Source of the DNA: Actinomyces culturomici
GTDB taxonomy: Bacteria; Actinomycetota; Actinomycetes; Actinomycetales; Actinomycetaceae
Assembly (NCBI RefSeq): GCF_900499005.1
Contig: NZ_LS991316.1
Location: forward strand, 778,166-842,165
Direction of reading: 5' to 3'
DNA: 64,000 nt
Shown in pieces: positions 1,121 through 20,970 of the stretch (position 1 is its first letter; each line of letters starts with the position of its first letter). The notes beneath the pieces were generated by a model, which ran no database searches, was not told the origin of the DNA, and saw nothing but the letters and a program-made list of their open reading frames with translations. Position numbers and translations under genes: made by a program.

Positions 1121-1151
1121 CCACCGCTTACACAAAACAATTGACAAGCTC
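1..1151 (+). mobile_element. IS256-family insertion sequence, left end outside the window
   Basis: The element enters from the left edge and ends near 1151. Its transposase frame is followed by a short non-coding tail (1121-1151, containing ttgacaagctc) that should be the right terminal repeat. From 1152 the sequence is abruptly that of an IS1634-type transposase, so this element is inserted in another IS. The target duplication and left terminal repeat cannot be seen. Confidence 0.8.
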
Positions 1152-4740: not shown

Positions 4741-5567
4741 AGCTCCGCCGGATCGACTCCGAGCTCGTGCGTCGGGGGCTCGCGCGTTCGCGCACCCAGG
4801 CGCAGGAGATGATCGCGGCGGGGCGCGTCAAGCTCGACGGCGAGGTCGTCCTCAAGCCGGCCCGTCAGATGAACCCCGCGCAGGCGATCGTCATCGCCCA
4901 GTCCGAGGACGACGAGTACGTGTCGCGCGGCGCCCACAAGCTCGCGGGCGCCCTCGATGCGCTCGGCGACGAGGCCCCGAGGGTCGAGGGACGCCGCTGC
5001 CTCGACGCGGGAGCCTCGACCGGCGGGTTCACGGACGTCCTTCTGCGCCGAGGCGCCGCGTCGGTCGTGGCGGTCGACGTCGGCTACGGGCAGCTCGCCT
5101 GGAGACTCCAGGCGGACCCTCGCGTCGAGGTCCGCGACCGCACGAACGTGCGGACGATGAAGGCGGGCGACGTCGTGCCCGCGCCCGAGCTCGTCGTCGG
5201 CGACATGTCCTTCATCTCCCTCGAACTCGTCATCCCCGCCCTCGTCGCGGTCGCCGCGCCGGACGCGGACTTCCTCCTCATGGTGAAGCCCCAGTTCGAG
5301 ATCGGGAAGGACCGGCTCGGGCACGGGGGAGTGGTCCGCAACCCCGAGCACCACGTCGAGACGGTTGAGAAAGTCGCGCGCTGCGCCCTCGCGGAGGGCC
5401 TCGACATCGCCGCCGTCGAGGCGTCGCCCCTGCCCGGGCCGTCCGGCAACGTCGAGTACTTCCTCTCCATGCGCGCCGGTCACCCGCACGCCATCGCCCC
5501 CGACGACCTCCACTCGCGTATCGTCGATGCCGTGAAGAGGGGACCGGCGGGAGAGGGGGAGCGATGA
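4737..5567 (+). CDS. tlyA: TlyA-type rRNA 2'-O-methyltransferase
   Basis: 276 residues. An N-terminal S4 RNA-binding domain (RRIDSELVRRGLARSRTQAQ) is followed by an FtsJ-like SAM methyltransferase fold with the SAM loop DAGASTGGFTDVLLRRG and later VGDMSFISL and MVKPQFE. TlyA methylates 16S and 23S rRNA 2'-hydroxyls in actinobacteria, and its loss gives capreomycin resistance (known for the family). Length matches the mycobacterial protein. The GTG start overlaps the preceding stop and the gene end overlaps the nadK ATG. Confidence 0.93.
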   Translation: MKLRRIDSELVRRGLARSRTQAQEMIAAGRVKLDGEVVLKPARQMNPAQAIVIAQSEDDEYVSRGAHKLAGALDALGDEAPRVEGRRCLDAGASTGGFTDVLLRRGAASVVAVDVGYGQLAWRLQADPRVEVRDRTNVRTMKAGDVVPAPELVVGDMSFISLELVIPALVAVAAPDADFLLMVKPQFEIGKDRLGHGGVVRNPEHHVETVEKVARCALAEGLDIAAVEASPLPGPSGNVEYFLSMRAGHPHAIAPDDLHSRIVDAVKRGPAGEGER

Positions 5568-6412
5568 TCCGCACGGTGATGCTCGTCCGGCACATCCACA
5601 GGCCCGACGCGATCACCGCGGCGTCCGTGGTCCGCGAGGAGCTCGAGGCGCTCGGCGTCGAGGTCGTCGACGAGGGACCCGAGGCCGAGGCCGATTTCGT
5701 CCTCGCAATGGGCGGCGACGGGACGATCCTCGCGGCCGCCGAGCACGCCCGGTGCCGCGACGTCCCCCTCCTCGGCGTCAACATGGGCCACATGGGCTTC
5801 CTCGCCGAGGCCTCCGGCCAGGAGCTCTCTCAGATCGCGCAGCGGATCGCGGCCGAGGACTTCCACCTCGAGAACCGCATGACGCTCGACGTCGCGGTCC
5901 ACTTCCCCGACGGGTCGACCGCGAGGGACTGGGCCCTCAACGAGGCCGTCGTCATCCACACGAACGTCGCCCACCCGGTCCACCTCGCCCTCGCCGTCGA
6001 CGGGCAGGACGTCTCGACCTACGGCGCGGACGGCATCGTCCTCGCGACCCCGACCGGGTCGACCGCCTACTCCTTCTCCGCTGGCGGACCTGTCGTCTGG
6101 CCCGACACGGAGGCGATCGTCATGGCGCCCCTCGCCGCGCACGGGCTCTTCACCCGCCCCCTCGTCGTCGGCCCCTCCTCGACGCTCGACGTCCTCGTCC
6201 TCGAGGAGACCTGGGCGGATCCCGAGATGTGGTGCGACGGCTCCCGCCGCACCGTCCTGCCCGCCGGCTCCATCGTCTCGACGACCGTCGGGGAGCGTCC
6301 GGTTCGCCTCGTCCGCCTCGACGACACTCCCTTCTCCGCGCGACTCGTCCAGCGCTTCAATCTTCCGGTCCGCGGGTGGCGCTCCGGACATCCGAGGACG
6401 CAGGCCGGATGA
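5564..6412 (+). CDS. nadK: NAD kinase
   Basis: 282 residues. Phosphorylates NAD to NADP in the cytoplasm using ATP or polyphosphate. The family signatures are present: MGGDGTIL (GGDG motif), NMGHMGFLAEAS, and the conserved block TPTGSTAYSFSAGGPVVWP. The ATG lies in an ATGA overlap with tlyA. The order tlyA-nadK-recN is conserved across actinobacteria. Confidence 0.95.
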   Translation: MIRTVMLVRHIHRPDAITAASVVREELEALGVEVVDEGPEAEADFVLAMGGDGTILAAAEHARCRDVPLLGVNMGHMGFLAEASGQELSQIAQRIAAEDFHLENRMTLDVAVHFPDGSTARDWALNEAVVIHTNVAHPVHLALAVDGQDVSTYGADGIVLATPTGSTAYSFSAGGPVVWPDTEAIVMAPLAAHGLFTRPLVVGPSSTLDVLVLEETWADPEMWCDGSRRTVLPAGSIVSTTVGERPVRLVRLDDTPFSARLVQRFNLPVRGWRSGHPRTQAG

Positions 6413-8079
6413 TCTCCTCGATCGAGATCTCCGGGCTCGGCGTCATCGACCGGGCGGTCCTCGAATTCGGCGACGGCCTCACCGTGCTCACCGGCGAGAC
6501 CGGCGCCGGCAAGACGATGGTCCTCACCTCCGTCGATCTCCTCCTCGGAGGGCGCGCCGACCCCGCCCTCGTCCGCGCCGGGGCGGCGAGCGCGCAGATC
6601 GACGGCGTGATCGTCGTCGGGGAGTCCGACGCCGAGCGGGCGCGCGAGGCCGGGGCAGAGGTCGAGGACGGCGAGCTCATCGTCTCGCGCACGGTCGCCT
6701 CCCAGGGCCGCTCGCGGGCGCGCCTCGGCGGTCGGCCGGTCCCCGCGTCGATCCTCTCCGAGGTCGTCTCGCCGCTCCTCACGGTCCACGGTCAGGCCGA
6801 GCAGATGCGCCTCAAAGCACCCGCCGCCCAGCGCGAACTCCTCGACGCCTTCGGGGGAGCCCCTCACACCGCGCTCCTCGAGGAGTATGCGGTCGCGTGG
6901 CGCGAGGCCGTCTCCCTCAAGCGACTGCTCGACGAGGTCGAAGCCGGCGCCGACGACAGGGAGCGCGAGGCCGCCGAGCTCGAAGAGGCACTCGGGGCCA
7001 TCGACGCGCTCGACGTCCACGCGGGCGAGGACGAGGAGCTGCGCGCCGAGGCCCGCAGGCTGATGAACGTCGAGGACCTCCGCCGGTTCGCCGGCGCGGC
7101 GGGTCAGATGCTCGCCGGAACCGAGGACGCCGACGGGGCGGCGGGACTCCTGCGCATGGCCCTCGAGCAGGTGCGCGGGGCGGAGCGCCTCGACGACTCG
7201 CTCGCCGACCTCGCCTCCCGATTCGACGCCGCGATCATCGACGTCGAAACCCTCGCCGACGACGTGCGCGCCTATGCGCGCTCGCTCGACGCCGATCCCG
7301 CGCGGCTCGCCGCCGTCCACGCGCGCCGAGCCGCTCTCAAGTCCCTTCTCGAGGGGAGGGCCGCGGACGCCGCCGAGCTCCTCGACTGGGCGTCCCGCGC
7401 CCGCGCGCGCCTGAGCGAACTGAGGGGGGCGGGAACCGACCCCGCGCTCGTTCGCGACCGGCTCCACGAGGCCCAGGCTCGCGTCCTCGAGGTCGGCGGA
7501 CGCCTCAGCGCAGCCCGGAGGGGTCTCGCCTCGCGCCTCGCCGCCGCGGTCGACGTCGAGCTCCACGCCCTGGCCATGAAGGACGCCGCCCTCGAGATCT
7601 CCGTCGGTCCCGCCAAACCGAATTCGCACGGGCTCGACGACATCGCGATCCTCCTGCGCCCTCATCCCTCCGCCCAAGCGCGGCCCCTCGGCCAGGGGGC
7701 CTCCGGCGGCGAGCTCTCGCGCATCATGCTCGCGCTCGAGGTGATTCTCGGAGAGCACGATCGCGCCGAGACCTTCGTCTTCGACGAGGTCGACGCCGGC
7801 ATCGGCGGACGGACCGCCAATGAGGTCGGCGCGCGGCTCGCCCGCCTCGCCGCGAACCGGCAGGTCGTCGTCGTCACGCACCTCCCGCAGGTTGCGGTCT
7901 TCGCGACCACTCACCTCGTCGTCTCGAAGGAGGACGGCCGCACGAGCGTCCGCCGCGTCGAGGGCGAGGAGCGCGATGGGGAGCTCACCCGCATGATGGG
8001 TGGAGATCCTCACTCCCCGGCGGCGCGCCGACACGCGATCGAGGTCCTCACCTCGGGCGTGTCACAATCGCAGGGATGA
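6409..8079 (+). CDS. recN: DNA repair protein RecN
   Basis: 556 residues, an SMC-like ATPase for double-strand break repair. Walker A GETGAGKT lies near residue 30. A long coiled-coil-prone middle (E/A/L/R-rich) is followed by the ABC signature GASGGELSRIMLAL and Walker B FVFDEVDAGIGG, then VVVTHLPQVA. The ATG overlaps the nadK stop, which fixes the start. Length is normal for the family. Confidence 0.95.
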   Translation: MISSIEISGLGVIDRAVLEFGDGLTVLTGETGAGKTMVLTSVDLLLGGRADPALVRAGAASAQIDGVIVVGESDAERAREAGAEVEDGELIVSRTVASQGRSRARLGGRPVPASILSEVVSPLLTVHGQAEQMRLKAPAAQRELLDAFGGAPHTALLEEYAVAWREAVSLKRLLDEVEAGADDREREAAELEEALGAIDALDVHAGEDEELRAEARRLMNVEDLRRFAGAAGQMLAGTEDADGAAGLLRMALEQVRGAERLDDSLADLASRFDAAIIDVETLADDVRAYARSLDADPARLAAVHARRAALKSLLEGRAADAAELLDWASRARARLSELRGAGTDPALVRDRLHEAQARVLEVGGRLSAARRGLASRLAAAVDVELHALAMKDAALEISVGPAKPNSHGLDDIAILLRPHPSAQARPLGQGASGGELSRIMLALEVILGEHDRAETFVFDEVDAGIGGRTANEVGARLARLAANRQVVVVTHLPQVAVFATTHLVVSKEDGRTSVRRVEGEERDGELTRMMGGDPHSPAARRHAIEVLTSGVSQSQG

Positions 8080-9269
8080 TAGAGGAACAGAACTCTCGCG
8101 CCCAGGGCGTCGACGCGCGCGGACTCGCCCGCGTCGACGGCAGGATCAGGAATCTCGCCTCGCGGATCGAACCGGGGGAGATCGCGGTCGTTGACCAGAT
8201 CGACCTCGACAGGGCGTCCGCGCACGCCCTCGCCTCGAGGAGCCCGAAGGCGGTGCTCAACGCTTCGCCGTCGACCTCCGGTCGCCACCGGGTCCTCGGC
8301 CCGAGGATCCTCCTCGACGCGGGGATCATCGTCATCGACGACCTCGGGCAGGACGTCATGGCGGTGCGAGAGGGAGAGACCCTCGAGATCCGCGGTTCCG
8401 AGGTCCTGCGCGACGGGGCGGTGATCGCGAGCGGCCACCTCCTCGACGCCGCCGACCTCGAGCGCGACGAGCGCGAGCAGCGCCGCATGATCTCCACGCA
8501 GATCGGCTCGTTCGCCGCTTCGATCGACGAGTACCTCGATCGCGACGGGGGAGTCCTGCGCGGCGAGGGCGTCCCCGTCTACCCGAAGGCGCTCGAGGGG
8601 AAGACGGTCCTCCTCGTCCTCGACGACGATCGCGCGGACGCCGACCTCAAGTCCCTGCGCCGGTGGATCGGCGACGCCGCCCCGGTCGTCATCGCCGTCG
8701 ACGCGGGCGCCGACACCGCGCGAAGGGCGCGAATCGCCCCCGACTTCGTCGTCGGCGACATGGAGCGCATGGACGAGAAGGCCCTGCGCGGCGCGAAGCG
8801 CCGCATCGTCGTCCGCGGTCACGACGGCATCGCCCCGGGCAAGGAGCGGCTCGACCGCATGGGCCTCCACTGCGACGCCCTCGAGATGTCGGGCACCGCG
8901 GAAGACGCGGCGATCCTCGTCGCCACCCACTCCGGCGCCTCCTCGATCGTCGTCGCCGGCGGGTCCCACGACCTCGACGACTTCATCGACCGCGGACGCT
9001 CCGCGATGGCCCCCTCCTTCTTCACGCGGCTCGCCGCCGGCGACGCCCTCGTCTCCGCGAAGGCCGTCGCCGCCTCGCACAGGCCGCGTATCTCCGGCGG
9101 CTGGCTCGCGCTCCTCCTCCTCGTCGTCCTCGCGTGCCTCGGCGCCGCGCTCTGGTCGACGCCGTGGGGCCGCGATCTCTTCACCGGTCTGGCCGCATGG
9201 GCCCACGGCCTCGTGACCGCCTCGCCCGGCGCCCACCCGCTCACCGGCCCCCTGACCGCGCTCGCCTGA
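8076..9269 (+). CDS. steA: SteA-like cytokinetic ring protein
   Basis: 397 residues, homologous in position and content to Rv1697 and Corynebacterium SteA. It has a thiamine-pyrophosphokinase-like fold (IAPDFVVGDMERMDE resembles the GDFDS region), a C-terminal membrane helix (WLALLLLVVLACLGAALW) and a short tail. In Corynebacterium SteA and SteB work together in cell division. The ATG overlaps the recN stop. Pyrophosphokinase activity is not expected. Confidence 0.87.
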   Translation: MIEEQNSRAQGVDARGLARVDGRIRNLASRIEPGEIAVVDQIDLDRASAHALASRSPKAVLNASPSTSGRHRVLGPRILLDAGIIVIDDLGQDVMAVREGETLEIRGSEVLRDGAVIASGHLLDAADLERDEREQRRMISTQIGSFAASIDEYLDRDGGVLRGEGVPVYPKALEGKTVLLVLDDDRADADLKSLRRWIGDAAPVVIAVDAGADTARRARIAPDFVVGDMERMDEKALRGAKRRIVVRGHDGIAPGKERLDRMGLHCDALEMSGTAEDAAILVATHSGASSIVVAGGSHDLDDFIDRGRSAMAPSFFTRLAAGDALVSAKAVAASHRPRISGGWLALLLLVVLACLGAALWSTPWGRDLFTGLAAWAHGLVTASPGAHPLTGPLTALA

Positions 9270-9279
9270 GGAATTGAGA

Positions 9280-10191
9280 ATGCTGAACTTCCGCTACCAC
9301 ATCGTCTCGCTCATCGCGGTCTTCGCCGCCCTCGCCATCGGCGTCGTCCTCGGCGCGGGCCCCCTCCAGTCGAGGCTCGCCTCCGCCCTCTCGTCCTCGC
9401 AGGCATCGACCTCCGCGGCCGATGCCGCGAGCCTCGCCGACGCCCAGCGGATCGCCGACGCGGACGCCGCCGGCCTCAACGCCCTCGCCTCCGCGAAGCT
9501 CTCCGGATCGCTGTCCGGTCTCAAGGTCGCGACCGTATCCCTTCCGGGCGCGAACGCCGATGACGTCAAGACGGCGACCGAGGCACTCAAGTCCGCGGGC
9601 GCCGAGGTCGTCGGCGCCGCATCGCTCACGGACAACTGGGAGTCCGCTTCGATGTCCCAGTACCGCGAGACCCTGTCGACCCCCCTTGCGACGCACCTGC
9701 CCTCGCTCCCCTCGGACGCGAGCGGCGACGCGATCATCGGCTTCGGCGTCGTCTCCGTGCTCACCTCGACGGGCTCGGAGACCGACCTCGTGAAGGAGAT
9801 CCTCACCGATCAGTCGACGCCGATCCTCTCCCTCGACTCCGACCCGAAGGGCGGCGCCGAGGCGATCGTCGTCATCGGCGCCCGCGACTCCGCGCAGTCG
9901 GCCTCCGACTCCCAGTCCGCGGCCTCTGCGGCGAGCCCCGACGCCTGGGCGGGCCTCGCCCGCGCGGTCGCCGCCGCTCCGAAGTCGGGCGTCGTCGTCG
10001 GCGACGCGCACGACTCGACCTCGATGGTCGCCTCGCTGCGCTCGACTGGCGCCCAGGTGACGACGATCGACTCGCCTGGAACCGCACTCGCGAACGTCTC
10101 CGCGGTCGCGGCCCTGCGCGACGCATCGGCGGCCGCACGCGCCTTCGGCGTCGGCGAGGGCGCGGAGAAGGTGCTCCCCGACCTGCCCTGA
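9280..10191 (+). CDS. steB: SteB / MctB-like envelope protein
   Basis: 303 residues. The start MLNFRYHIVSLIAVFAALA is one uncleaved N-terminal membrane helix. An Ala/Ser-rich, coiled-coil-prone extracytoplasmic part follows, as in Rv1698 (MctB, an outer-membrane copper-export protein in mycobacteria) and Corynebacterium SteB. I chose the ATG at 9280 because GAGG (9268-9271) is well spaced; a TTG at 9274 is the alternative. It is the last gene of the conserved chain before the accessory insert. Division partner and copper channel are both possible roles. Confidence 0.85.
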   Translation: MLNFRYHIVSLIAVFAALAIGVVLGAGPLQSRLASALSSSQASTSAADAASLADAQRIADADAAGLNALASAKLSGSLSGLKVATVSLPGANADDVKTATEALKSAGAEVVGAASLTDNWESASMSQYRETLSTPLATHLPSLPSDASGDAIIGFGVVSVLTSTGSETDLVKEILTDQSTPILSLDSDPKGGAEAIVVIGARDSAQSASDSQSAASAASPDAWAGLARAVAAAPKSGVVVGDAHDSTSMVASLRSTGAQVTTIDSPGTALANVSAVAALRDASAAARAFGVGEGAEKVLPDLP

Positions 10192-10244
10192 TTGTGTATC
10201 TCCCGTAATAATGTGAACACTGTCTGAGGGGGCTTGCCGCCGAT
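10192..10244. other. Left edge of the accessory insert
   Basis: AT-richer sequence just after steB (gattgtgtatctcccg, then gtaataatgtg). The expected next gene, pyrG, is about 10.8 kb away, so the junction of the foreign segment probably lies here. No terminator or clear attachment repeat was seen. Confidence 0.4.
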
Positions 10245-10511
10245 TCCAGTTTGGGGATAGGGGCGAATGCTGTGAGACAGGCAGGTCGTGTGGCAGCGAA
10301 GTAGGTCCACTCGGCGACACGAGCGCGGTGTAGTGCTCGAACTTGCCGTTGCTCAACGGGTCGGTAGGGCTTGGCCCAACTGCGCTCTTGACGGACCCGA
10401 GAGTATCTGCGAAGGCGTATGAGCGGTAGCGGGCGCCCTTTACGACGGTGACGGTGACTCCGAGGCGTTCGCTCGCGGCAATAGAGCGACCGCGGTCTCC
10501 TCGTGCTCGTA
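10245..10511 (-). pseudogene. Degenerate IS481-type transposase (integrase core) fragment
   Basis: Read on the minus strand the stretch gives LGVTVTVV, then ARYRSYAFADTLGS, then DPLSNGKFEH. These match the IS481-family order GVTVERVMTDNGSCYRS ... RPQTNGKIER. The catalytic Asp of DNG is lost (KGA here), and after NGKFEH the continuation (RVAEWTYF, as in EWAY) is in another frame. The fragment is cut at its 5' side by the IS1634-type element starting at 10512. It is dead and short, so the family call is moderate. Confidence 0.55.
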
Positions 10512-10541
10512 GTTCAACCTGAGTTGCACAGTTGGGGTGTG

Positions 10542-12125
10542 TCACGTGGCGAGGCTGTCGAGGATGGTTTTCGCGGTTGGTGGGATGGTGGGTTGGGCGG
10601 TGATGTTGTGTCCGGCGATGCGGATGGTGACGTGACGCAGGGGCCGGAGTTGCCTGACGACGCTCTTGAGGGTCGTTCCGGTGCGGCGTTGAATGTCCCT
10701 GGCGACGGCGAGGGCGGTGATGACGACGGTCAGGTGTGCTTCGATGGCGTCGCGTGTGTGGTGGAAGATCGGCCTGGCTTTGAGGTCGGTTTTGCTCATG
10801 CGGAAGGACTGCTCGACGTGCCAGAGATCGTGATACGAGGTGATCACCTCCGAGGCGGGCATGAGGTGTTTGGGGATGTTGGTGACGTAGCCCTTCAATC
10901 CCACGAGCATTCGCGCCCGCTCAATACCCTTTTCGTCGATGCTGGCTGATCCGCGGGCTTGGGCGACGAAGGCTGGCTGATCCGCGGGCTTGGGCGACGA
11001 AGCGCGCCTTCTTCGCCTGCCGGCATCCCTCGACGATGTCGCGGGCGCGTTCTTCTTGCAGGCGCAGGGTTTTCGCGTCGCGGGCCCCCCGTTTCGCCGA
11101 GTAGGCCCAGACAGCCCGCCACGACTGCTCATGCGTCCTGGGGTCCCATACGGGCTCCGCCTTCACCTTCAGGTCCGAAGAGGCATTCGCACGGGCGTTC
11201 CCGCGCGGGGTGATGGTGTCAACCAGCTGCCCGTCGGCGAACGCGTCGCCGTGCCAGTGGAAGTGGGCTTCCAGATCATGGGGTGCTCGTGTTTGGCGGG
11301 CCCCGCACAATTGAACCGCAAGCCCGCCTCATCCAACTCGCGCAGGTTGGAGGCCGAGAGCATGCCAGCGTCGGCGACCACCACCATGTCGTGGGCGCCG
11401 TGGCGTTCCTGGAAAGCTTTGACGGTCGGCAGGATCGTCTGGGTTTCCGCCTTGTTCCCCTCCCAACACGAGACTTCCAGGGGGAAGCCTTGCCGGTCGA
11501 CGAGCAGGCCCACCACGATCTGGGGGTCCACGCGCCGCTCCTTCGAATACCCCACCTTTCGAAGCTCGTCTTCCTTCTCCGCCTCGAAATACAAGGTCGT
11601 CACGTCGTACAAGACCAGAGACAGGTCCCCGCCCGACAGGGCGTGGCGAAAACACGCTGTGGCGATCCGGTTCCGATAGTCATCCCTGTTGGCCCGCTCC
11701 AGAGCAGACTGCAAGGAGTTGCGGTGGCGCGCAGCAACGCCGAGCTCTTCAAGGACAAGCCCGGCAGCCCTGACGGATCCGGGAGCGATGAGGCGGGCGG
11801 CGACAAGCTGGAAGAACCCTTCATCACCCAATGCTTCTTCAAACCCGAGGAACCTGTAGACGCTACGGATCGCCTCCAGGAGCAGACGCGACTCCTGGGC
11901 GACCACAACCGCCTGACCCGGCATCTTCCCCGAGTCGGTGTCCAACGGCAGCGTCTCCTGGCCAGGGTGCAGATGATCGTTCGCGATGCGAAGCAGCGCG
12001 GCAAGCTCGCCGTCGCTGTGAGCAGTACCGACATGCTCCAGCACGACATCGCGTCGATCGCGGCGCTCAGCGATCTGCACTTTGACCGCACCATTACGCC
12101 CTGGCACCTTGCGAACGAACACCAC
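10542..12125 (-). pseudogene. IS1634-family transposase with two frame disruptions
   Basis: The N-terminal part starts at a GTG (12125; VFVRKVPGRNGAVKVQI) and contains LVLYDVTTLYFEAE (first DDE Asp) and MVVVADAGMLSASNL (second Asp). Near 11300-11315 the frame changes (RFNCAGPAK to GARQTRAPHDLEAHF). A second break is caused by a 31-bp tandem duplication at 10941-11002. Beyond it, IDEKGIERARMLVGLKGY and WHVEQSFRMSK run to the stop at 10542. With both lesions repaired it would be a normal full-length transposase, so decay is recent. Confidence 0.85.
10941..11002 (-). repeat. Perfect 31-bp tandem duplication that breaks the transposase frame
   Basis: Units 10941-10971 and 10972-11002 are identical; each starts gctggctgatccgcggg and ends cgacgaag. 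As 31 is not a multiple of three, the second copy shifts the frame. Deleting one unit joins KKARFVAQARGSAS to IDEKGIERAR, the expected sequence and the one seen in the other IS copy. Confidence 0.93.
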
Positions 12126-12244
12126 GAGCCCACAATACCCAGCCCGCGGGGTGTGTCATCCACGAAAACCAAACACAACCCCACCAGGCAAAACACACTC
12201 ACAAAGAGCCGAAATCAGACCCAACTGTGCAACTCAGGTCGAAC

Positions 12245-12708
12245 CGCAGGTGAATACCTCTCCGGTGACGACCCGACCGGCATGCAAACCGCAGCACCTT
12301 GCGCGGCGATCGCTGCGGGGAAGAGCATGGCTTAGATTGAGTCTTGATCGGTCACTGACAGCCCGAACCGTTACCGGTCCGCCAACCGCTTCGCCGTCGC
12401 CAGCGAGCACCTGAACCGTTCCGGGGCGGGCTACAAGGAACAGCGCAGCTCGACGACGAACAGCCAGGCGACGATGCTTCTCAGACGTGTCAAAGGGACG
12501 CTTGCGTGAATCACGAGGACCTCCGTGGTCAGGATGCGAGCGCGATAACCCACATCCTGACCATCTAGGTCCTCACCCCTGAACCCGTTCACATCTTTTC
12601 GGGCAAGTACACCTAGGAATACCTGCAGTTTCGTTCCAGTTCTTCTCGAGCGTTTCAGCCTGCATTTTCGGTAGGTATGCTCCATTACTTGAGACGGGGC
12701 TCGAAGGA
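12245..12708. other. Non-coding remnant region between the IS and the GH172 gene
   Basis: No intact gene is supported. A plus-strand frame just after the IS reads AGEYLSGDDPTGMQTA and stops at 12335, possibly a decayed C-terminus. A large inverted repeat lies at 12514-12573. The GH172 stop is at 12709, so the right half is the 3' region of that gene. Confidence 0.5.
12514..12573. terminator. Large imperfect hairpin downstream of the GH172 gene
   Basis: Arms 12514-12535 (gaggacctccgtggtcagg...) and 12552-12573 pair over 22 bp with three mismatches and a 16-nt loop. It lies about 135 bp past the minus-strand GH172 stop. It may end that transcript, or be a remnant of an IS end. There is no clear T-run. 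Confidence 0.45.
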
Positions 12709-13851
12709 TCATCGATCAAGGCTGAAGTGGGTTTCCGCTCTCGCCGGACATGCGCCAAGATCGGGGACAGGCAGCGTTCCCAAGTGAATCTCCATGGATT
12801 CCGACGTTGGCGAAGTCGGTCGCGACGTGGAACTGTGATCAAGGTAGAAGAATGACGTCGAGGAGATATCGTCTCGAAGTGGGAGATAACGCCATCCCGC
12901 GCGCCATCCCAAGGCTTGAATTTCAACTCGGGATATCTCTTCGTCAAAACGGATCGGATCCAAAATGTGCCAGCGGTAGAGTCCGAACCTCTGCTGAGAG
13001 CTGTACAGGCCATCCGGTCTGATGACCTGTGGCATACCGAGATAGGGAGTTGAGTATTCAGTGTACCCATGACCGGGAACGTCAAAATTCCATGCACCTC
13101 CGAAGTAGTCTTCGGTGCCAGTGCCGCAGATCGTTGGATATTTGCGATCACCATCGAAGTAGAACTTCATCTCACCCTCGCCCCACCAGCCATTTGAGTT
13201 CACTCCCCAGGCCAGATAGGTCCCAACGTACGAACCGTGTCCGGTGATCTTGTCCAGGAGGACGTGTGGCTTCTTCTCCTCAAGAGGATTCGATCGACGC
13301 CACTGCGCATGAAAGTAGCCTATTGTAGGTGGAACTGCCCGTAGTTCATATGTCACCTGATAATAGACTCTGGCGGATGCTTCCGAGGTGTTCTCGAGTG
13401 TGATGAGAGCACCTCTTCGAAAGGGCATCGGCCAGTATGAATTGAATCCGCCATGCGGATTGGCTGCAACCGTCTGCGAATTCACTTGGGAGAAGACTCC
13501 CCATCCGTTGCAGAAAAAGTCGCCGTAAGGAACCTCCACTGCAGGCTCCGGATCACCGTCCCAGTACATACGCAAGACGAGTGTGCGCCAGTTGTCCGTA
13601 TGTGTCGTTGCCCAAATGTGGGAGATGCAGCCAGCCCCTTCGATGTCTGCGACAACAAACGTAGCTCCTGGATCGATGTCAACGCTCGGTGACACTTTCC
13701 AGCCGGGCCCGAGATCTCGAGCACAACCAGCACCGGTACCTGACGTGGCCCTTGCACCACCTCCCTTCGAGCCATCAAAGTTTTCCGGACTGATCGAACG
13801 CGTGTGCACGCTACCGGATTCGGGCAGGATGTACAGGGATGACAGATCCAT
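12709..13851 (-). CDS. GH172 (DUF2961) family glycoside hydrolase
   Basis: 380 residues, a normal length for the family, with no signal peptide, so probably cytoplasmic. DUF2961 features include FDGSKGGG, ISHIWATT, LRMYWDGDPEPAVEVP, YGDFFCNGWG, GWWGEGEMKFYFDGD, CGTGTEDYFGGAWNF and ALGWRAGWRYLPLRDD. The Glu residues of GEGEMKF and GTGTEDYF are the candidate catalytic pair. Characterised GH172 enzymes act on alpha-D-fructofuranosyl or D-arabinofuranosyl linkages. I chose ATG 13851 because a GAGG sits just before it; 13863 is an upstream alternative. The LacI-type operator at 13894-13907 lies in its promoter region. Confidence 0.85.
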   Translation of the reverse strand: MDLSSLYILPESGSVHTRSISPENFDGSKGGGARATSGTGAGCARDLGPGWKVSPSVDIDPGATFVVADIEGAGCISHIWATTHTDNWRTLVLRMYWDGDPEPAVEVPYGDFFCNGWGVFSQVNSQTVAANPHGGFNSYWPMPFRRGALITLENTSEASARVYYQVTYELRAVPPTIGYFHAQWRRSNPLEEKKPHVLLDKITGHGSYVGTYLAWGVNSNGWWGEGEMKFYFDGDRKYPTICGTGTEDYFGGAWNFDVPGHGYTEYSTPYLGMPQVIRPDGLYSSQQRFGLYRWHILDPIRFDEEISRVEIQALGWRAGWRYLPLRDDISSTSFFYLDHSSTSRPTSPTSESMEIHLGTLPVPDLGACPARAETHFSLDR

Positions 13852-13893
13852 GAGCGACCTCATCGACGACGTGGATTGGTGTTCCGCCGCCAG

Positions 13894-13907
13894 TGTAATC
13901 GATTACA
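13894..13907. promoter_or_regulatory. LacI-family operator between GH172 and lacI genes
   Basis: tgtaatcgattaca is a perfect 14-bp palindrome with the central CG typical of LacI/GalR operators. It lies between divergent genes, 42 bp before the GH172 ATG and 40 bp before the lacI ATG. The same core recurs at 20855-20866 upstream of the binding-protein gene. Confidence 0.85.
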
Positions 13908-13947
13908 GTTGGCGTCGGCAAGATGATCGTGTATCGAAGGGAAATGA

Positions 13948-14967
13948 ATGGCGACGATTTCGGACGTTGCGCGCCTGGCCAATGTTTCTGTAGCGACTGT
14001 CTCGAGAGTCTTCAATGGGGCACGAGTGTCCGACGCTCGGACGCGCGCAGTCCTGGCTGCCGCCGAGCAGCTCTCATTCACTCCGAATCGGGCAGCTCGG
14101 AATCTCCGTATGCGTCGATCGGACCTGATCGCTCTCATCATTCCTGATCTTGCGAACCCATACTTCACTGAGTTGGCAAGAGGCGTTGAGGATCGAGTGA
14201 TTAGAGACGGCTTCTCGCTCGTGCTTTGCAATACTGACGATTCCAAAGAGAAGGAGCGGAGCTATTTGCGAATTTCGCGTGCCCAAGAAATGGCGGGTCT
14301 AATGATGGTGGTCGCTGACACTGCGCATCCTCCTGCAGAGCTTGAGAGGCTTGGTATGCCAGTAGTCGTGGTGGACCGTGCACCCGACATCGCCGTTGAT
14401 TCTGTGATCTCCGCAAACGCCGATGCCGGTCGGATTGCGACGAAGTCGCTAATTGATCAGGGCTATCGGCGAATCGCCTTCATCGGTGGGCCGGGCTACA
14501 TCGATACTGCGAGCCAGCGCCGTCGGGGTTGGATGGATGCGATGAGCGAAGCCAAGGGCTCTCTCTCCACTGTGATTGAGGTTGAAACTGACTTTAAGGT
14601 CGGTGGCGGATATCGAGCGACCCTTGAGCTTCTCGATAGAGCGGATCCTCCAGAGGCGATAGTCGCCGCCAACAGTCTGATTGGTGTAGGTATGCTGCAG
14701 GCGTTGACCGAACGGGAGATCCTTCCGCCGCGAATTGGGGCGGCTGTGATCGGCAATCTTCCCTATTCGACATTGTCTCTTAGAAACGTGTCGATAGTGG
14801 ATCTACATGAATACCGAATCGGTTGGGAAGGAGCTGAGTTGCTCCTCGATCGGATTAGGGGCTCGCGCGTCGAACCGCGTGCGCTGATAGTTGAAGTTGG
14901 CGACGATATTGGTTCGCTGAGGTCTATGCCGAAGCAGCAACAGGAAGGGCTCCGTGGAACTAGATGA
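13948..14967 (+). CDS. LacI-family transcriptional regulator
   Basis: 339 residues. The N-terminal helix-turn-helix is textbook: ISDVARLANVSVATVSRVFNG, with hinge helix region PNRAARNLRMRR. A periplasmic-binding-like effector domain follows (ALIIPDLANPYFTELARGVED, ... RIAFIGGPG). It most likely represses the GH172 gene and the ABC-GH116 operon through the palindromes at 13894 and 20855, and probably itself. The effector is unknown, perhaps a sugar released by GH172 or GH116. The ATG follows gaaggga. It is convergent with the GH116 gene with an 18-bp gap. Confidence 0.92.
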   Translation: MATISDVARLANVSVATVSRVFNGARVSDARTRAVLAAAEQLSFTPNRAARNLRMRRSDLIALIIPDLANPYFTELARGVEDRVIRDGFSLVLCNTDDSKEKERSYLRISRAQEMAGLMMVVADTAHPPAELERLGMPVVVVDRAPDIAVDSVISANADAGRIATKSLIDQGYRRIAFIGGPGYIDTASQRRRGWMDAMSEAKGSLSTVIEVETDFKVGGGYRATLELLDRADPPEAIVAANSLIGVGMLQALTEREILPPRIGAAVIGNLPYSTLSLRNVSIVDLHEYRIGWEGAELLLDRIRGSRVEPRALIVEVGDDIGSLRSMPKQQQEGLRGTR

Positions 14968-14985
14968 TGCTCTCGAAACGGCTCA

Positions 14986-17514
14986 TCACCTGAAGGTGTG
15001 AAGATACTGCTCGCGTTCGAGGGTGATGTTGTGCCAGAGTACGTATCCATTGCAAACAATTGTGACCTTGTCAAGGGTGCCCTGGAGTACACGGATCTTG
15101 AACTCATTTGGATTGATCGTCACGCGCCCCCAGGCACTATTGGTAATGAAGAGTCCCGAGTAGCCGTCAGGTCGAGCTGGATGAAAATCTAGCCGTCTAT
15201 GAGGAGCGTCCCATTGCTGCCCGGATTCGGTTAACAGGAGAGCCCAAGAAGACATTGACCGGGCATAGTATCGCCCGCATTCAATCTCGCTCCATGGATT
15301 TCTTTTCACGCCGTCGTAGCGTTCGGAAATTGCCGATTCGATACGGTCGCATTGCGCAATGCGACCGCGAGAAAGCAACAGCGTTGCAACTTCATGTTCG
15401 ATTCCCGTCCAAACTTCGTCCGAGTAAACAAATGGCACTTGGGGTCGGTCCCCGTGGGGCCAAGATGCCAACAGAAGACCAGCTTCCCTGGGAAGAGCAA
15501 AGGCGCGCCTCGTGGAGGGGACGCAGGAAAGGTCGGCAACGAAGTTGTGGGTGAAGATCGCGTCGAGAGCAGAATCAAGTGACGCGTTGTTCGTAATCTG
15601 CTCAAGGCCATTCACGAGCGCGTGGAACTGTCCAAGAAGTTGATCTGAAAGCACACCACTACCGAACTGGTGGCGCGCGGCCTCGGAGCATCCGATCTGT
15701 TGGAAGTACTCGCCATTGAAGAGAAGCTCACCGAATGCGGTTCGACATCGCAGGCGCGCTTCTTTCCAGGTATCAGCGTGAATAGTGTCATGCATACGTC
15801 TTGCGAGGCGCTCACCCGCGTCGAGAGCGGCGATGAGCATGGAGTTTGCGAGCGGCTCACTTCCCTCGAACTCGATGTCGTATGTGTTGTGGACCCGAGC
15901 ATTGACAAGGCCGGTCTCTGGATCGACCCAATTGGTTAGTGCGAAGTCGAGGGCGCGGGCCGCGGAGTGCCATCGGCGGGAGAGCCATGTGTCATCACCC
16001 GCAAAGCGCCACTCGCGATATAGGCGCAGGATGGTGCCGAGCTGACCGTCGACTGCCGGAGCCATGAACCACTGGGGATTTCTGAATAGTGCATTGGATC
16101 TGAAGCGCTGGGAGCCCTCCGGGGAAGTTTCCTCGTCAAACTCAAGCTCTCGAGCGCTGCGCTCGAGCTCGGGGAAGACCCAGGCGAGCGTCTGCGCGTA
16201 TGACCATACGTGTGTACAGCTTCCCTCGCAGGAACCGACACTTTCAAATAGACCTTCCCAAGCTCCAAGTACGGGACCTTGTCGGGCACCATCCTCAATT
16301 GCGAAGACGAGCGGGGTGCGCAACGCTGCAAGAGAAGCCGCGATTGACCTCTGGGATGCTGCTGGAATCGTCGAGTCACACAGCGTGACCGCGAATCGCG
16401 AAGAACTAGCGAGGAGGTCGTCACGATGGCCGAAATAGTGCGCGATGACTTCATGCGCGTTCGCCCATCTCTCGGCGTAGGAATTCAAGACTCTCCGGTG
16501 AGTCTCTCCTCCCTCGAGCCCGATGTTGCCATTCCACTCTGCCAATCGGTATGGAACCAGCCACGCGAGTACAAATACGAACTCTCCAATATCACCAGGA
16601 GCAATTTCTTGGGTGGAGGCCACGGAAGCGGTCCTCTCCTTTGGCAGTACGTCCCAAATGTCATGGTGCGCTGGATCAAAGTTTGAGGAAAATAGCGGTA
16701 GCGGTTCCGACTCGTGTGTTGGCAAGCCCTCGCTCGGAAGTCGACCGGTAGTCGTAAACTCCGTCCAGAACTGCTCTGAAGCATCCGGCCAGAAGTCGAC
16801 ACTCCAAGCGGGAAGTACCTCTGCACCTTCGTCGCCAATCGCAAGGGCAATCGACGAGTACTTCCCACCGGACGCTGCCCCCGCCAGCTCTACTCCTGAC
16901 CACCCATGCTCTCGAATGACAGTCGAGCACGGAGCCGCCAGACCTGAATCGACAGTGTCGGCGAAGAGCGATGGATCGTAGCTCGTTGTTCCAACAACCG
17001 AAAATGACAAAGGCGTGGCGGACGTATTCTCCACGCTGATTCTGAACTCGACCAGCGGGAGCGACGAAGAATCAAGATCGAGTGGAATGAAGGGCGTGAC
17101 TGCGCGAATATGCACGCTTGCAGGGAACTCCGGGTCGGCGAGTTCCCCGAACGCGAACGGGAACAACGCGGAGACCGTTCCGGTGGTGAAACGCGGTAAA
17201 CCCGCCAACTCTGCAAATGGAGATCCGCCTTGCCAGTCGAACGGGGCCGAGTATTGTGACTCAATGATCCTCGACGTCGGAACGCCGATCGGGTTTGTAG
17301 TTCGAATAGCGAAGAACGAATATCCGTTCTTCCCGCCGAAGCGAGGGCCGTTCCAAAGTTGCCAATCTGTCAATTCACACCGCGGGCCGAATGACACGCC
17401 CCCCGTGCAGACGCCCCCAAGTGGAAATCGCCAGGTCGTATCGCTCGACGAGTAGATCGGCCGAGAAACGTCTCCGAATTCCTCCGAACCGTGCTTTCCG
17501 AAACTATGAACCAT
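14986..17514 (-). CDS. GH116 (GBA2-like) family glycoside hydrolase
   Basis: 842 residues, no signal peptide. The N-terminal sandwich domain begins WRFPLGGVCTGGVSFGPRCE, matching the GBA2-type LPLGGIGTG motif. The (alpha/alpha)6 catalytic domain has VHNTYDIEFEG, with Glu548 as likely nucleophile, and SDEVWTGIEHEVA, with Asp699 as likely acid/base. Their spacing of 151 fits human GBA2 (E527/D677). Family activities include beta-glucosidase, beta-xylosidase and beta-N-acetylglucosaminidase; the substrate here is not predictable. It follows the second permease by 4 bp and is last in the operon, so it probably acts on imported oligosaccharide. Confidence 0.88.
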   Translation of the reverse strand: MVHSFGKHGSEEFGDVSRPIYSSSDTTWRFPLGGVCTGGVSFGPRCELTDWQLWNGPRFGGKNGYSFFAIRTTNPIGVPTSRIIESQYSAPFDWQGGSPFAELAGLPRFTTGTVSALFPFAFGELADPEFPASVHIRAVTPFIPLDLDSSSLPLVEFRISVENTSATPLSFSVVGTTSYDPSLFADTVDSGLAAPCSTVIREHGWSGVELAGAASGGKYSSIALAIGDEGAEVLPAWSVDFWPDASEQFWTEFTTTGRLPSEGLPTHESEPLPLFSSNFDPAHHDIWDVLPKERTASVASTQEIAPGDIGEFVFVLAWLVPYRLAEWNGNIGLEGGETHRRVLNSYAERWANAHEVIAHYFGHRDDLLASSSRFAVTLCDSTIPAASQRSIAASLAALRTPLVFAIEDGARQGPVLGAWEGLFESVGSCEGSCTHVWSYAQTLAWVFPELERSARELEFDEETSPEGSQRFRSNALFRNPQWFMAPAVDGQLGTILRLYREWRFAGDDTWLSRRWHSAARALDFALTNWVDPETGLVNARVHNTYDIEFEGSEPLANSMLIAALDAGERLARRMHDTIHADTWKEARLRCRTAFGELLFNGEYFQQIGCSEAARHQFGSGVLSDQLLGQFHALVNGLEQITNNASLDSALDAIFTHNFVADLSCVPSTRRAFALPREAGLLLASWPHGDRPQVPFVYSDEVWTGIEHEVATLLLSRGRIAQCDRIESAISERYDGVKRNPWSEIECGRYYARSMSSWALLLTESGQQWDAPHRRLDFHPARPDGYSGLFITNSAWGRVTINPNEFKIRVLQGTLDKVTIVCNGYVLWHNITLEREQYLHTFR

Positions 17515-17518
17515 CGAC

Positions 17519-18379
17519 TCACTTCATCCCAGACATCTTAATGTTGCCAATGATCTGGCGTTGGAAAATGAGGAAGATGATGACCACCGGAGCGGCTGCA
17601 AGTACCGAGCCAGCCATCAATAGGCCCAACTCCGTGGTCCGCTCCGATCGGAAGCCGGCCAAATACTGCTGGATTACGAAGTTTTTCGGCGATGCAATTG
17701 TAAGGATAGGCCAAACATAGGAATTCCAATAGGCGAGGAATGCGGTGATTCCTTGAACGACAAAAGGTGGGCGCGATAGTGGAAGAAAGACCTTTAGGAA
17801 AATCTTGAAGCGGCCGCAACCATCCAGCATTGCTGCCTCTTCGAGGCTCTGCGGGATGTTCAGATAGAACTGTCTAATGAAGAATATTGATGCGGCGTTT
17901 GCTGCACCTGGGATTACGAGCACGGCTAAGGTGTCGAGCATCGCCAGCTTGGTAACTACGATGAAGCTCGTGAGGAGAATCGTCATTCCCGGGATGAACA
18001 TGGTGGTGATGGTGACTACCCAGAGCAATCGCTTGAAACGAAAGTCAAGTCGTGCGAACGCGTAGGCTGCAAGAGAGTTGACGGTAAGGGATAGGATTGT
18101 GTACAGAACAGCGCCGACAAACGTCCACACCATTGTCCGAACGAAAGTTGGGTCGGCGAGAATCTGCCGATAATTCTGCCACTTCCAAACTTCTGGAAAG
18201 AACTGAAAGGGGGTTTCAATTACCTCAGTCTTAGACTTGAATCCGGCGATCAGCATCCACAGTAGAGGAAAGAGTGCTGAGAAGAGAATTGCTGCGATGG
18301 CAATGGCTTTGGCGGCATGTGGGATGACACTTGCCAACATAGTTTTCGCCGATGAATTGCGCCTTGGTCCACTCGACAT
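17519..18379 (-). CDS. Carbohydrate ABC transporter permease (MalG type)
   Basis: 286 residues, about six membrane helices, beginning with a helix at AIAIAAILFSALFPLLWMLI. The EAA loop that docks the ATPase is EEAAMLDGCGRFKIFLKVFLP. It pairs with the upstream MalF-type permease (1-bp gap) and the lipoprotein at 19391-20752. No ATPase gene is in the cluster, so a shared MsiK-like ATPase elsewhere is expected. Confidence 0.92.
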   Translation of the reverse strand: MSSGPRRNSSAKTMLASVIPHAAKAIAIAAILFSALFPLLWMLIAGFKSKTEVIETPFQFFPEVWKWQNYRQILADPTFVRTMVWTFVGAVLYTILSLTVNSLAAYAFARLDFRFKRLLWVVTITTMFIPGMTILLTSFIVVTKLAMLDTLAVLVIPGAANAASIFFIRQFYLNIPQSLEEAAMLDGCGRFKIFLKVFLPLSRPPFVVQGITAFLAYWNSYVWPILTIASPKNFVIQQYLAGFRSERTTELGLLMAGSVLAAAPVVIIFLIFQRQIIGNIKMSGMK

Positions 18380-18380
18380 T

Positions 18381-19277
18381 TCAATCCACCGACCTTTCTG
18401 AGTTCACGAATCTGAAAACCAATGCTGAGATGCTCCCGAGGACGACGAACATGACAAGCGCAGCCGCCACCGAATATGAGACGTTGATGTCGTTCCTGAA
18501 GTGGTTGAAAATGAACAAGTTGGGGAGTGTTGTTGAATCGACTGGGCCGCCGCCGGTCATGACGAGAGGGAGCTCATACTGCTGGATGGCTGTCACGAAT
18601 CCTGTAACGAGTAGATACAGCAGGATGTTCTTCATCTGAGGAATGGTGATGTAGATGGTCTTCTGCCACCAGTTTGCGCCATCAAGGGCGGCCGACTCGA
18701 AGAATTCGTTCGGAATGTCGAGCATTGCGGCGACCATGATGAGAGACATAAGACCCATGCCGAGCCAAATCGCGGGCACCGCAATGGCGAGGAGCGCCCA
18801 TTTCGGGTCGCCGATCCAAGCGATTGGTGATACTCCGAAGTGGGCAATGAACCAGTTGAGGATTCCTCCCGAGTAGTTGTAGATGAGTGCAAACACGATG
18901 GACGTGATGACGGTCGAAATGATCGTTGGAATGTAGATTGAAACCTTGAGTACCGTTGCCAACCGCGAAGATACGGAGACAGTAAGTGAAGCGAATAGAA
19001 AAGAGAGTATCATCATTGGAGGCACTGTAAGAAGTACGAAGATCAAGCCTCGTTTTACGGCTTTCCAGAAGAGTTCGTCATGCAGGACGGCAGCGAAGTT
19101 GTCGAGCCCAACAAAGGTCGGTGGAGTGTAGAAACTCCAGTTGTGGAGCGACAGATAGGCGGCATATATGGCGGGCCAAATGACGAAGATTCCGAGGAGT
19201 ATAAGCGCTGGGGCGAGGAAGGCATAGGCGATTTTGTCCTGTGGCTTATGCGTCACAACGCGGGGATAGTGTGTCAT
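18381..19277 (-). CDS. Carbohydrate ABC transporter permease (MalF type)
   Basis: 298 residues from the ATG at 19277 (MTHYPRVVTHKPQDKIAYAF), which has a GGAG about 8 nt upstream. The frame stays open to 19382, but the extra N-terminus would be encoded by the 15-bp hairpin and is rejected. Membrane helices begin AFLAPALILLGIFVIWPAIY. The EAA-type loop is FFESAALDGANWWQKTIYI. It forms the membrane channel with the MalG-type permease. Confidence 0.9.
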   Translation of the reverse strand: MTHYPRVVTHKPQDKIAYAFLAPALILLGIFVIWPAIYAAYLSLHNWSFYTPPTFVGLDNFAAVLHDELFWKAVKRGLIFVLLTVPPMMILSFLFASLTVSVSSRLATVLKVSIYIPTIISTVITSIVFALIYNYSGGILNWFIAHFGVSPIAWIGDPKWALLAIAVPAIWLGMGLMSLIMVAAMLDIPNEFFESAALDGANWWQKTIYITIPQMKNILLYLLVTGFVTAIQQYELPLVMTGGGPVDSTTLPNLFIFNHFRNDINVSYSVAAALVMFVVLGSISALVFRFVNSERSVD

Positions 19278-19344
19278 GCCACTGCTCCGTTCAATGAATC
19301 CTATGTATTCCTCGTTGATTGGATGATGAAGATGAGTCTCAGTC

Positions 19345-19380
19345 GGTGGTGGGCACCGAACGAGCTCGGTGCCCACCACC
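19345..19380 (-). terminator. 15-bp intercistronic hairpin after the sugar binding-protein gene
   Basis: ggtggtgggcaccga (19345-19359) and its exact complement (19366-19380) enclose a 6-nt loop. It starts 10 nt after the binding-protein stop codon, before the permease genes. No T-run follows, so it is more likely a partial terminator or a 3'-end protector that raises binding-protein mRNA over permease mRNA. Confidence 0.8.
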
Positions 19381-19390
19381 AACGGTTCGA

Positions 19391-20752
19391 CTAGTTTGCG
19401 GCCTTGTTCGGGAGATTCTCGCGGTCGATGACCGTCTGAATTGCGGTATCGGCTGTCTTGATGGCGTCGTCAGGGGAAGATGCGCCGGTCATGACAGATT
19501 CGATTGCAGTGCCAACAGCGAGTGAGATGTCCCATGGATAGGTCGGTTCGGGAATTGCTGTGGGTGCGATTTCGTTGACGATTGTGTCCTGCCATGGCGC
19601 GGCAGCAGCTTTCTTAGAAGCCTTGACTGCTGTTTGGACAGATTCGCGAACCGGAACTTTGGTGAATTGGGTGTTGACGAAGAAGGGAACAAGATTCTGG
19701 GGATCGCCGCCAATTGCCCACTCGATGAACTTGCCGGCAGCGTCCGCGTTGTCGGACTTGGCGTCAACAACCCACGTGAAGTTTCCAAGTGTAGTTGTTG
19801 TGTCACCCAGAGCGGCAGGTGCCGACGGGAACGGATGGATCTTCGTTACCGGTAGCGTGTCAGGATAGTCTGAGGCGATCTCCGAGAACATCCACGATCC
19901 GGAAACCTTGAAGGCAACCTTTCCTTGGCCGAATTCCTTTCCTTCAACGTAGGGATTGAGAAGCTGCTTGGGCATATAACCGTTGTCCCAAAGCTGCTTG
20001 TAGTAGTTCATCAGTGTGCGGAAACCAGCATTGTCGATGTTGGGTGCTGTCCAGTCGTCGGTGAGTGCTGTGTGGCCTTGGAAGTTGTATTGCTGGCCGA
20101 CGGAGGCCCAAGCAAAAGTTTGGGCATCTTGGGCGGGAGCGATGCAGTACTGCCCTTCGGATAGTGTCGGCTTAATCTTTGCGCAGGCACTAAGCAAGTC
20201 ATCCCAGCTGTTGGGGGCATAGTCGGCGGGAAGGCCCGCGTTCTCAAGAATTGAAGAATTCGAGAAGAGTGCTGCTTGGGGCTCGAGAAGAAGAGGATAG
20301 GCGTAGAACTTTCCATTCTTCTGCGAGATCGACTTTGCTGAGTCGATGATCTGACCAAGTGAGTCCGCTGAAACGATCGAATCGAGGTCGTGAAGTTGCT
20401 GAGCGTTCACGGCGTCGTCGAGGGATCCTGAATGAGTGTAGACGTCGGGCGCGTTCCCTGCGGCTTGGGCGGCCTTGAGCTTCTGATCCCATGAATCCGC
20501 TGGGATCTCTGTATCCTTGACGACGATTTCCGATTGGGATGAGTTGAACTGCTGAACGATATTCTTGTACCACTCGTTTTCCACTGGAGTGAAAGTGCGA
20601 TGCCAGAATTCAATCGTCGTCGCTCCACTCGTATCTGTACTCTGCGTCGCTGACTGACCCGGCGTTGCGGATCCGCAAGCGGAGAGCGCTAGGGAAAGGC
20701 CGATGCCGATCGCAACGAGAGCTGATGCGCGGGGATGCGCTGAGCGTTTCAT
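19391..20752 (-). CDS. Sugar ABC transporter substrate-binding lipoprotein
   Basis: 453 residues. MKRSAHPRASALVAIGIGLS plus lipobox LSAC gives a lipoprotein signal; the Cys is lipidated and the protein sits outside the membrane. A family-1 extracellular solute-binding fold follows (IEFWHRTFTPVENEWYKNIV, ... FKVSGSWMFSEI). ATG 20752 has a strong AAGGAGG. First gene of the operon binding protein - permease - permease - GH116, with a LacI-type operator about 100 bp upstream. The ligand is unknown; cluster content suggests an oligosaccharide. Confidence 0.93.
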   Translation of the reverse strand: MKRSAHPRASALVAIGIGLSLALSACGSATPGQSATQSTDTSGATTIEFWHRTFTPVENEWYKNIVQQFNSSQSEIVVKDTEIPADSWDQKLKAAQAAGNAPDVYTHSGSLDDAVNAQQLHDLDSIVSADSLGQIIDSAKSISQKNGKFYAYPLLLEPQAALFSNSSILENAGLPADYAPNSWDDLLSACAKIKPTLSEGQYCIAPAQDAQTFAWASVGQQYNFQGHTALTDDWTAPNIDNAGFRTLMNYYKQLWDNGYMPKQLLNPYVEGKEFGQGKVAFKVSGSWMFSEIASDYPDTLPVTKIHPFPSAPAALGDTTTTLGNFTWVVDAKSDNADAAGKFIEWAIGGDPQNLVPFFVNTQFTKVPVRESVQTAVKASKKAAAAPWQDTIVNEIAPTAIPEPTYPWDISLAVGTAIESVMTGASSPDDAIKTADTAIQTVIDRENLPNKAAN

Positions 20753-20854
20753 GGTGTCCTCCTTGACTACCAAGCGATTGCCCTAGAAGAAGAGGCGGCG
20801 CGAGTGGCGATCTTGCAACGTCGCTCAGTTACGCCGACGTGATTGAGACTACAA

Positions 20855-20866
20855 GTAATCGATTAC
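20855..20866. promoter_or_regulatory. Second LacI-type operator, upstream of the ABC operon
   Basis: gtaatcgattac is a 12-bp palindrome followed by A. It matches the 14-bp site at 13894-13907 except for the first base. It lies about 103 bp upstream of the binding-protein ATG on the opposite side from pyrG, so it should control the minus-strand operon. Confidence 0.8.
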
Positions 20867-20970
20867 ATTCGCAAGCATCTTGAGTGCAGATGTGCCTCAT
20901 CCGGCCAACTGAGCTGGTCGAGATGTGCTCTTGGCCAGTGGAACAATTGGCGTCAGGATGTGCACCGTCC

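Follow-up and report, generated by a model that had tools for sequence, protein, structure and literature searches.

The closest described system to the locus considered here is the D-arabinan locus of Microbacterium arabinogalactanolyticum (MIAR_33170-33320). According to the main text of PMC10509167, its exo-acting enzymes ExoMA1 and ExoMA2 have no signal sequence and are encoded near an ABC importer, a putative isomerase, and a kinase. The locus also includes four GH183 genes, two shown to encode endo-D-arabinanases, with the enzymes being secreted. Exposure to D-arabinose or to an extract of mycobacterial walls raised GH183 and GH116 expression more than 10-fold, GH172 expression 3.5- to 6-fold, and that of the gene for the substrate-binding protein (SBP) significantly (PMC10509167). 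We analyzed a 64,000-nucleotide stretch of the Actinomyces culturomici genome (contig NZ_LS991316.1, positions 778,166 to 842,165; hereafter, the window). A preliminary description of this DNA recognized a glycan-use locus with a GH172 enzyme, a GH116 enzyme, a sugar importer, and a LacI-family regulator, and we confirmed these genes and their family assignments. It also took the pairing of the two enzymes to be unrecognized. This does not hold, as the same pair with an ABC importer makes up the named and characterized pathway of M. arabinogalactanolyticum, as presented in PMC10509167; the preliminary description had itself named such a finding as its refutation. The pathway is thus already known, and the window contains a cut-down, horizontally acquired form of it. 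Judging by homology, the locus very probably serves in the use of D-arabino-oligosaccharides from mycobacterial-type walls (arabinogalactan or lipoarabinomannan).

The components that we take to mark a D-arabinan utilization locus in Gram-positive bacteria (GH172, GH116, and an ABC sugar importer) are all present together. A check of the open reading frames of the window showed that the six genes are intact open frames in the order below. G and L numbers denote genomes and loci.

12709..13863, minus strand: GH172 (DUF2961; Pfam E = 5.7e-91; 8ic8 E = 7.6e-199), predicted ExoMA1-type exo-alpha-D-arabinofuranosidase
13895..13906, no strand: LacI operator GTAATCGATTAC, in the gap between the divergent lacI and GH172 genes
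13948..14967, plus strand: LacI-family regulator; seven related loci have a LacI of 42-52% identity encoded divergently from GH172
14986..17514, minus strand: GH116 (Pfam PF04685 and PF12215; 8ic6 E = 9.2e-192), predicted ExoMA2-type exo-beta-D-arabinofuranosidase
17519..18379, minus strand: ABC importer permease, MalG-like, 76% identity in G418 and G132 (blastp)
18381..19382, minus strand: ABC importer permease, MalF-like, 72-84% identity to the visible portions of its counterparts in G418, G409, and G132
19391..20752, minus strand: SBP lipoprotein of the importer (SBP_bac_1), 65-68% identity in G418, G409, and G132
20855..20866, no strand: second LacI operator GTAATCGATTAC, 102 bp upstream of the SBP ATG, preceding the SBP-permease-permease-GH116 run
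10512..12244, minus strand: broken IS1634-family element bounding the island on the left, with inverted ends at 10512-10536 and 12220-12244
12240..20960, no strand: acquired island, edges approximate, 55.0% GC

The SBP coordinates use an ATG seven codons into the frame, whose listed start is a TTG at 20773, and the protein has a lipobox-like LSACG (by eye). By tblastn, the MalG-like permease is 83% identical over 246 residues in G418, G409, and G132. No signal-like N-terminal stretch was seen by eye in GH172 or GH116, which agrees with the preliminary description, where the enzymes had no signal peptide and would act on an imported oligosaccharide.

To identify the enzymes, we compared them with the sequences of solved structures. 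The best match of the GH172 protein is 8ic8, an exo-alpha-D-arabinofuranosidase (664 bits, residues 17-379); the three remaining structure sequences among the matches listed score 117-123 bits. The best match of the GH116 protein is 8ic6/8ic7, an exo-beta-D-arabinofuranosidase (643 bits, residues 28-833), versus at most 38 bits for the 12 other matches listed (glucosylceramidases and beta-glucosidases). As PMC10509167 reports, 8ic8 is ExoMA1 and 8ic6/8ic7 is ExoMA2, both from M. arabinogalactanolyticum, and GH116 enzymes of the ExoMA2 type form a proposed subfamily 4. By sequence, then, we class the GH172 protein as an ExoMA1-type exo-alpha-D-arabinofuranosidase and the GH116 protein as an ExoMA2-type exo-beta-D-arabinofuranosidase. 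The preliminary description had rightly named D-arabinofuranosyl bonds among the candidates for GH172. It had placed GH116 with the beta-glucosidases and xylosidases, and this placement is not supported, as the protein resembles ExoMA2.

The active-site residues are also conserved. In GH172, two conserved acidic residues, E229 and E251, are kept in nine of nine aligned proteins; by analogy with alphaFFase1, they are the presumed catalytic pair. N259, which corresponds to N253 of ExoMA1, is likewise asparagine in all nine. In GH116, E420, H435, R472, and D546 correspond to E431, H446, R483, and D557 of ExoMA2, and all four are kept. R472 and H435 (ExoMA2 R483 and H446) are the specificity residues that recognize arabinofuranose. 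Note that the numbering of the 8ic6 chain runs 4 ahead of that in PMC10509167, by a hand count from the alignment. In the alignment of five GH116 proteins, the one from G416 has a threonine at the nucleophile column, perhaps because of misalignment.

We searched order-level samples of 396 genomes with the window's GH116 (E ≤ 1e-40) and GH172 (E ≤ 1e-60). From their equal size and matching handles, we take the GH116, GH172, and GH183 searches to have used one common set. GH116 was found in 28 genomes and GH172 in 63. Both enzymes were present in 27 of the 28 GH116 genomes, and they lay no more than 20 kb apart in 18 of the 28. These counts cover 28 of 28 GH116 rows, 45 of 77 GH172 rows, and the top 34 of 124 GH183 matches; the omitted GH172 rows, which were either second copies within a genome or less similar matches, would not raise the 18. 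A metagenome-assembled genome from the Opitutaceae, in a distant phylum, has a GH172 gene (37% identity) adjoining a GH116 gene (34%; L023:8502-12355), so the pairing is not confined to actinobacteria.

The importer and LacI co-occur with the enzymes. We compared the six window proteins with 20 stretches by tblastn and with the roughly called genes of eight genomes by blastp (some frames were wrong). The SBP was present in 8/8 related genomes (34-68% identity), as was the MalG-like permease (seven via called genes and G409 via tblastn), and the MalF-like permease was present in 6/8. A LacI divergent from GH172 was found in 7 of the 20 stretches. Three other loci (L098, L099, and L100, from G278, G256, and G233) have GH183 and a related importer beside GH172, without this GH116; another enzyme may handle the beta-D-arabinofuranosyl ends in these genomes.

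The regulation of the locus is suggested by its operators. Within the window, the 12-mer GTAATCGATTAC has exactly two occurrences (shuffle mean 0.00), one at each promoter, and these are the only exact sites in the 2.56-Mb genome. The preliminary description was therefore right about shared operators. A looser 14-mer (up to 3 mismatches) gave the same two sites only, but this is less striking, as two matches were also reached by 5 of 100 shuffles. All seven related loci with the divergent lacI layout have sites like TGAAATCGATTTCA in the lacI-GH172 gap, and in the six of these loci with the SBP in view, an operator-like site precedes the called SBP start by 27-133 bp. With up to one mismatch, TGAAATCGATTTCA has 18 sites in 123 kb (the seven related loci), versus zero both in 20 dinucleotide shuffles and in 69 kb of flanking DNA; because this pattern was picked after the sites were seen, the counts are a contrast and not a probability. 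The window sites TGTAATCGATTACA and AGTAATCGATTACA differ from TGAAATCGATTTCA by 2 and 3 letters, respectively.

Three further places in the genome differ from GTAATCGATTAC by one base, and they probably lie outside this regulon. One is within an SBP gene, and the other two are adjacent to each other, upstream of another low-GC sugar island that encodes a LacI of its own. This second island (53-58% GC) is outside the window, on contig C1 of the same genome (G000; locus L136:1197-10116). Besides LacI, it encodes a sugar ABC transporter, a 707-amino-acid protein with a GH20b-like domain, a polysaccharide deacetylase, and an M24 peptidase, and it has two neighboring operator-like sites, GCAATCGATTAC and GTAATCGATTGC.

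The locus was acquired horizontally. The island has 55.0% GC versus 70.8% for positions 1-10500 of the window and 71.1% for positions 21034-64000, and it sits between mctB/steB and pyrG. We compared this junction across the genus (30 of 35 same-genus genomes became loci, own included). The gap between mctB/steB and pyrG is just 114-230 bp in 10 of the 29 other loci (L140-L168), and there is no pyrG within 1.5 kb beside mctB/steB in the remaining 19, so the junction may be a frequent insertion site. Nine related stretches had GC contents of 52-74%, and as the closest of the relatives compared are at 67-74%, the donor is not among these. At the left edge, the ends of the IS1634 element are 25-bp, near-perfect inverted repeats, and its transposase lies in two separate frames, between which a short direct duplication can be seen by eye. 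A 22-bp inverted repeat (86%; 12515-12574) just past the 3' end of GH172 is possibly a terminator or the end of another mobile element. Of the 35 same-genus genomes, just two gave a GH116 match: our own and G003 (30% identity). The latter also encodes a GH172 of 67% identity, about 440 kb from its GH116 (L004 and L138), and may carry a separate D-arabinan-like set.

What we observed are homology, conserved residues, gene order, operators, and the lack of certain matches within the reach of our searches; substrate, import, induction, and lifestyle are inferred from these. We propose that the SBP and the two permeases import short D-arabinofuranosyl chains, presumably with power from a shared ATPase encoded elsewhere. 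In the cytosol, GH116 would take off the terminal beta-D-arabinofuranose and GH172 the alpha-D-arabinofuranose units, to give free D-arabinose. The preliminary description had imagined a target with two different sugars; D-arabinose alone, in alpha and beta linkages, would suffice. The positions of the operators suggest that LacI represses both promoters via GTAATCGATTAC until the sugar is present. Free D-arabinose would then probably go to the genome's L-fucose isomerase and an FGGY kinase. The L-fucose isomerase of E. coli also accepts D-arabinose, which makes this route plausible. A fucI gene is present on another contig (1016 bits to PRK10991, cut-off 775). Downstream of it are an FGGY kinase, closest to rhamnulokinase, and a mutarotase-like stretch that is under its cut-off, with a sugar ABC transporter adjoining.

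The substrate is probably foreign, as no match to Emb (PF04602) was found in the genome; the family was detected in 9 of 148 genomes at class level and in C. glutamicum, the control. On this ground, we rejected the recycling of the bacterium's own wall. The absence of matches for both GH183 and Emb suggests that the bacterium probably does not cut the polymer itself or recycle its own wall, and that it takes up fragments from others. The pili of P. aeruginosa PA7, whose short alpha-1,5-D-arabinofuranosyl chains were used in PMC10115798, are another possible source of substrate.

Several observations weigh against the D-arabinan reading. First, the conservation of the GH116 protein is low: across the 27 other genomes, its identity to relatives is 39-45% in nine and 31-35% in 18. 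A scan of contigs for GH116 gave 14 loci that are all distant (27-32% identity), and in only one of these was GH172 within the retrieved DNA. Second, the pairing is not universal, with 36 of the 63 GH172 genomes lacking this GH116 at our threshold (14 of these 36 fall in one genus, g12). Third, the SBPs of G359 and G227 are just 34-35% identical, and no operator was found near the SBP start in the G416 and Arcanobacterium (L024) loci, which have other LacI types. Finally, the FGGY kinase adjacent to fucI is below the cut-off for rhamnulokinase (346 versus 528 bits) and scores 66 bits for L-fuculokinase (cut-off 471), and the four best FGGY matches in the genome to the kinase of a related locus are just 27-31% identical, so the last step, the kinase, is uncertain. 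The related loci encode an isomerase that also belongs to the fucose isomerase family but is distant and distinct from this one.

How the bacterium would obtain D-arabinan fragments is a separate question. No match to GH183 (PF13810) was found in its genome, which is a draft of 19 contigs that is rated as 100% complete (no control genome matched in that run). The same search was positive in 59 of 396 genomes, with 55 over the cut-off, so the method works. Among the 28 genomes with GH116, GH183 was strong in 25, weak in G337 (89% complete; its sole match, at 30 bits, is below the cut-off and was counted as not strong), and without a match in our genome and in G262 (73% complete). Given this absence of GH183 from one draft assembly, we consider it about an even question whether the bacterium is a scavenger that, lacking endo-cutting of its own, depends on fragments made by others. 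The scavenger reading would be undone if a GH183 gene were hidden in a gap of this single 19-contig draft, or if an endo-enzyme belonged to an unrecognized family.

The main competitor keeps the same substrate and competes with the scavenger part only: the locus could be the decaying remnant of a full D-arabinan locus that lost GH183, the isomerase, and the kinase, perhaps with the IS1634 insertion at its left edge. The IS1634 element is itself broken, no isomerase or kinase was found in the window to go with the missing GH183, and six related loci have GH183 within about 11 kb of GH116, with the kinase and the isomerase close by in several, all of which speaks for decay. But the six remaining genes are open, their active-site residues are kept, both operators are in place, and tblastn found no convincing trace of the isomerase, the kinase, or the other missing genes in the window (best E about 1). 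We consider decay to be unlikely.

Two other readings concern the substrate. Under the first, the locus would be a pathway for difructose anhydride or alpha-D-fructofuranosides, as for the GH172 of Bifidobacterium dentium, and the GH172 family does include alphaFFase1 (7v1v, E = 7.9e-33). However, ExoMA1 is far closer (664 versus 117 bits), the partner GH116 is of the beta-D-arabinofuranosidase type, and the position of Gly299 in alphaFFase1 is occupied by Asn259 here, as in ExoMA1. The asparagine at ExoMA1 253 blocks fructofuranose, where alphaFFase1 has Gly299 (PMC10509167). From the structure scores and this residue, we rejected the fructofuranoside reading of GH172, and such a pathway is very improbable. 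We give just as little credence to a mixed glycan in which a furanosyl residue is combined with a beta-glucosyl or beta-xylosyl one, which was the idea of the preliminary description: most characterized GH116 enzymes are indeed beta-glucosidases or glucosylceramidases (PMC10509167), but the arabinofuranose-recognizing residues are kept, and we rejected the beta-glucosidase reading given 643 bits for ExoMA2 versus at most 38 for the glucosidase-type matches listed.

Returning to the use of D-arabinan fragments from mycobacterial-type walls, what had seemed an unknown pathway can be corrected to D-arabinan use, and the exo-enzymes and importer are extended to a host whose genome yielded no endo-enzyme in our search. 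The locus also provides specific candidates for a regulator and an operator of this pathway, for which the main text of PMC10509167 does not mention LacI control. Among the open-licence papers listed by our searches, whose lists were capped and covered mostly as titles and the openings of abstracts, none appeared to describe a LacI-controlled or scavenging D-arabinan locus, or this operator; this is weak evidence of absence. If our reading is correct, there would be cross-feeding between bacteria that is based on D-arabinan and is under a LacI repressor with a defined operator. The chances seem evenly balanced that a small-genome actinobacterium with no Emb match acquired just the import and exo half of the pathway, with the endo-cutting left to mycobacteria, corynebacteria, or their predators, and with D-arabinose feeding into a pre-existing L-fucose pathway. 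PMC10115798 suggests that commensal corynebacteria may cross-feed others via shed wall structures. If the scavenger reading holds, then D-arabinan fragments shed by mycolata would be a food for which other bacteria compete.

Overall, the window can be compared with three kinds of systems. The enzymes of Dysgonomonas gadei are similar in that a GH172 acts on the alpha-D-arabinofuranosyl linkages of D-arabinan, but theirs is a Bacteroidota system with DUF4185 (GH183), as described in PMC10115798. The main text of that article has no occurrence of "GH116," yet PMC10509167 points to a GH116 gene in the D. gadei cluster. With the M. arabinogalactanolyticum locus, as presented in PMC10509167, the window shares the same exo-enzyme pair without signal sequences and an ABC importer; it differs in that no GH183 was found and that the locus has no isomerase or kinase. 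The word LacI is absent from the main text of that article. The third comparison is with the loci of G418, G409, G132, G359, G246, and G227, which are genomes from the same order. All six of these have GH183 at 4.6-11.0 kb from GH116, five (all but G227) have an FGGY kinase, four (G418, G409, G132, and G246) have a fucose-isomerase-like gene, and the GC content of their stretches is 67-74% versus 55% for the island. In other respects they resemble the window: GH172 is 72-74% identical, GH116 40-44%, LacI 42-52%, the SBP 34-68%, and the MalG-like permease 60-83%, and they share the divergent arrangement of lacI and GH172 and the operator-like sites.

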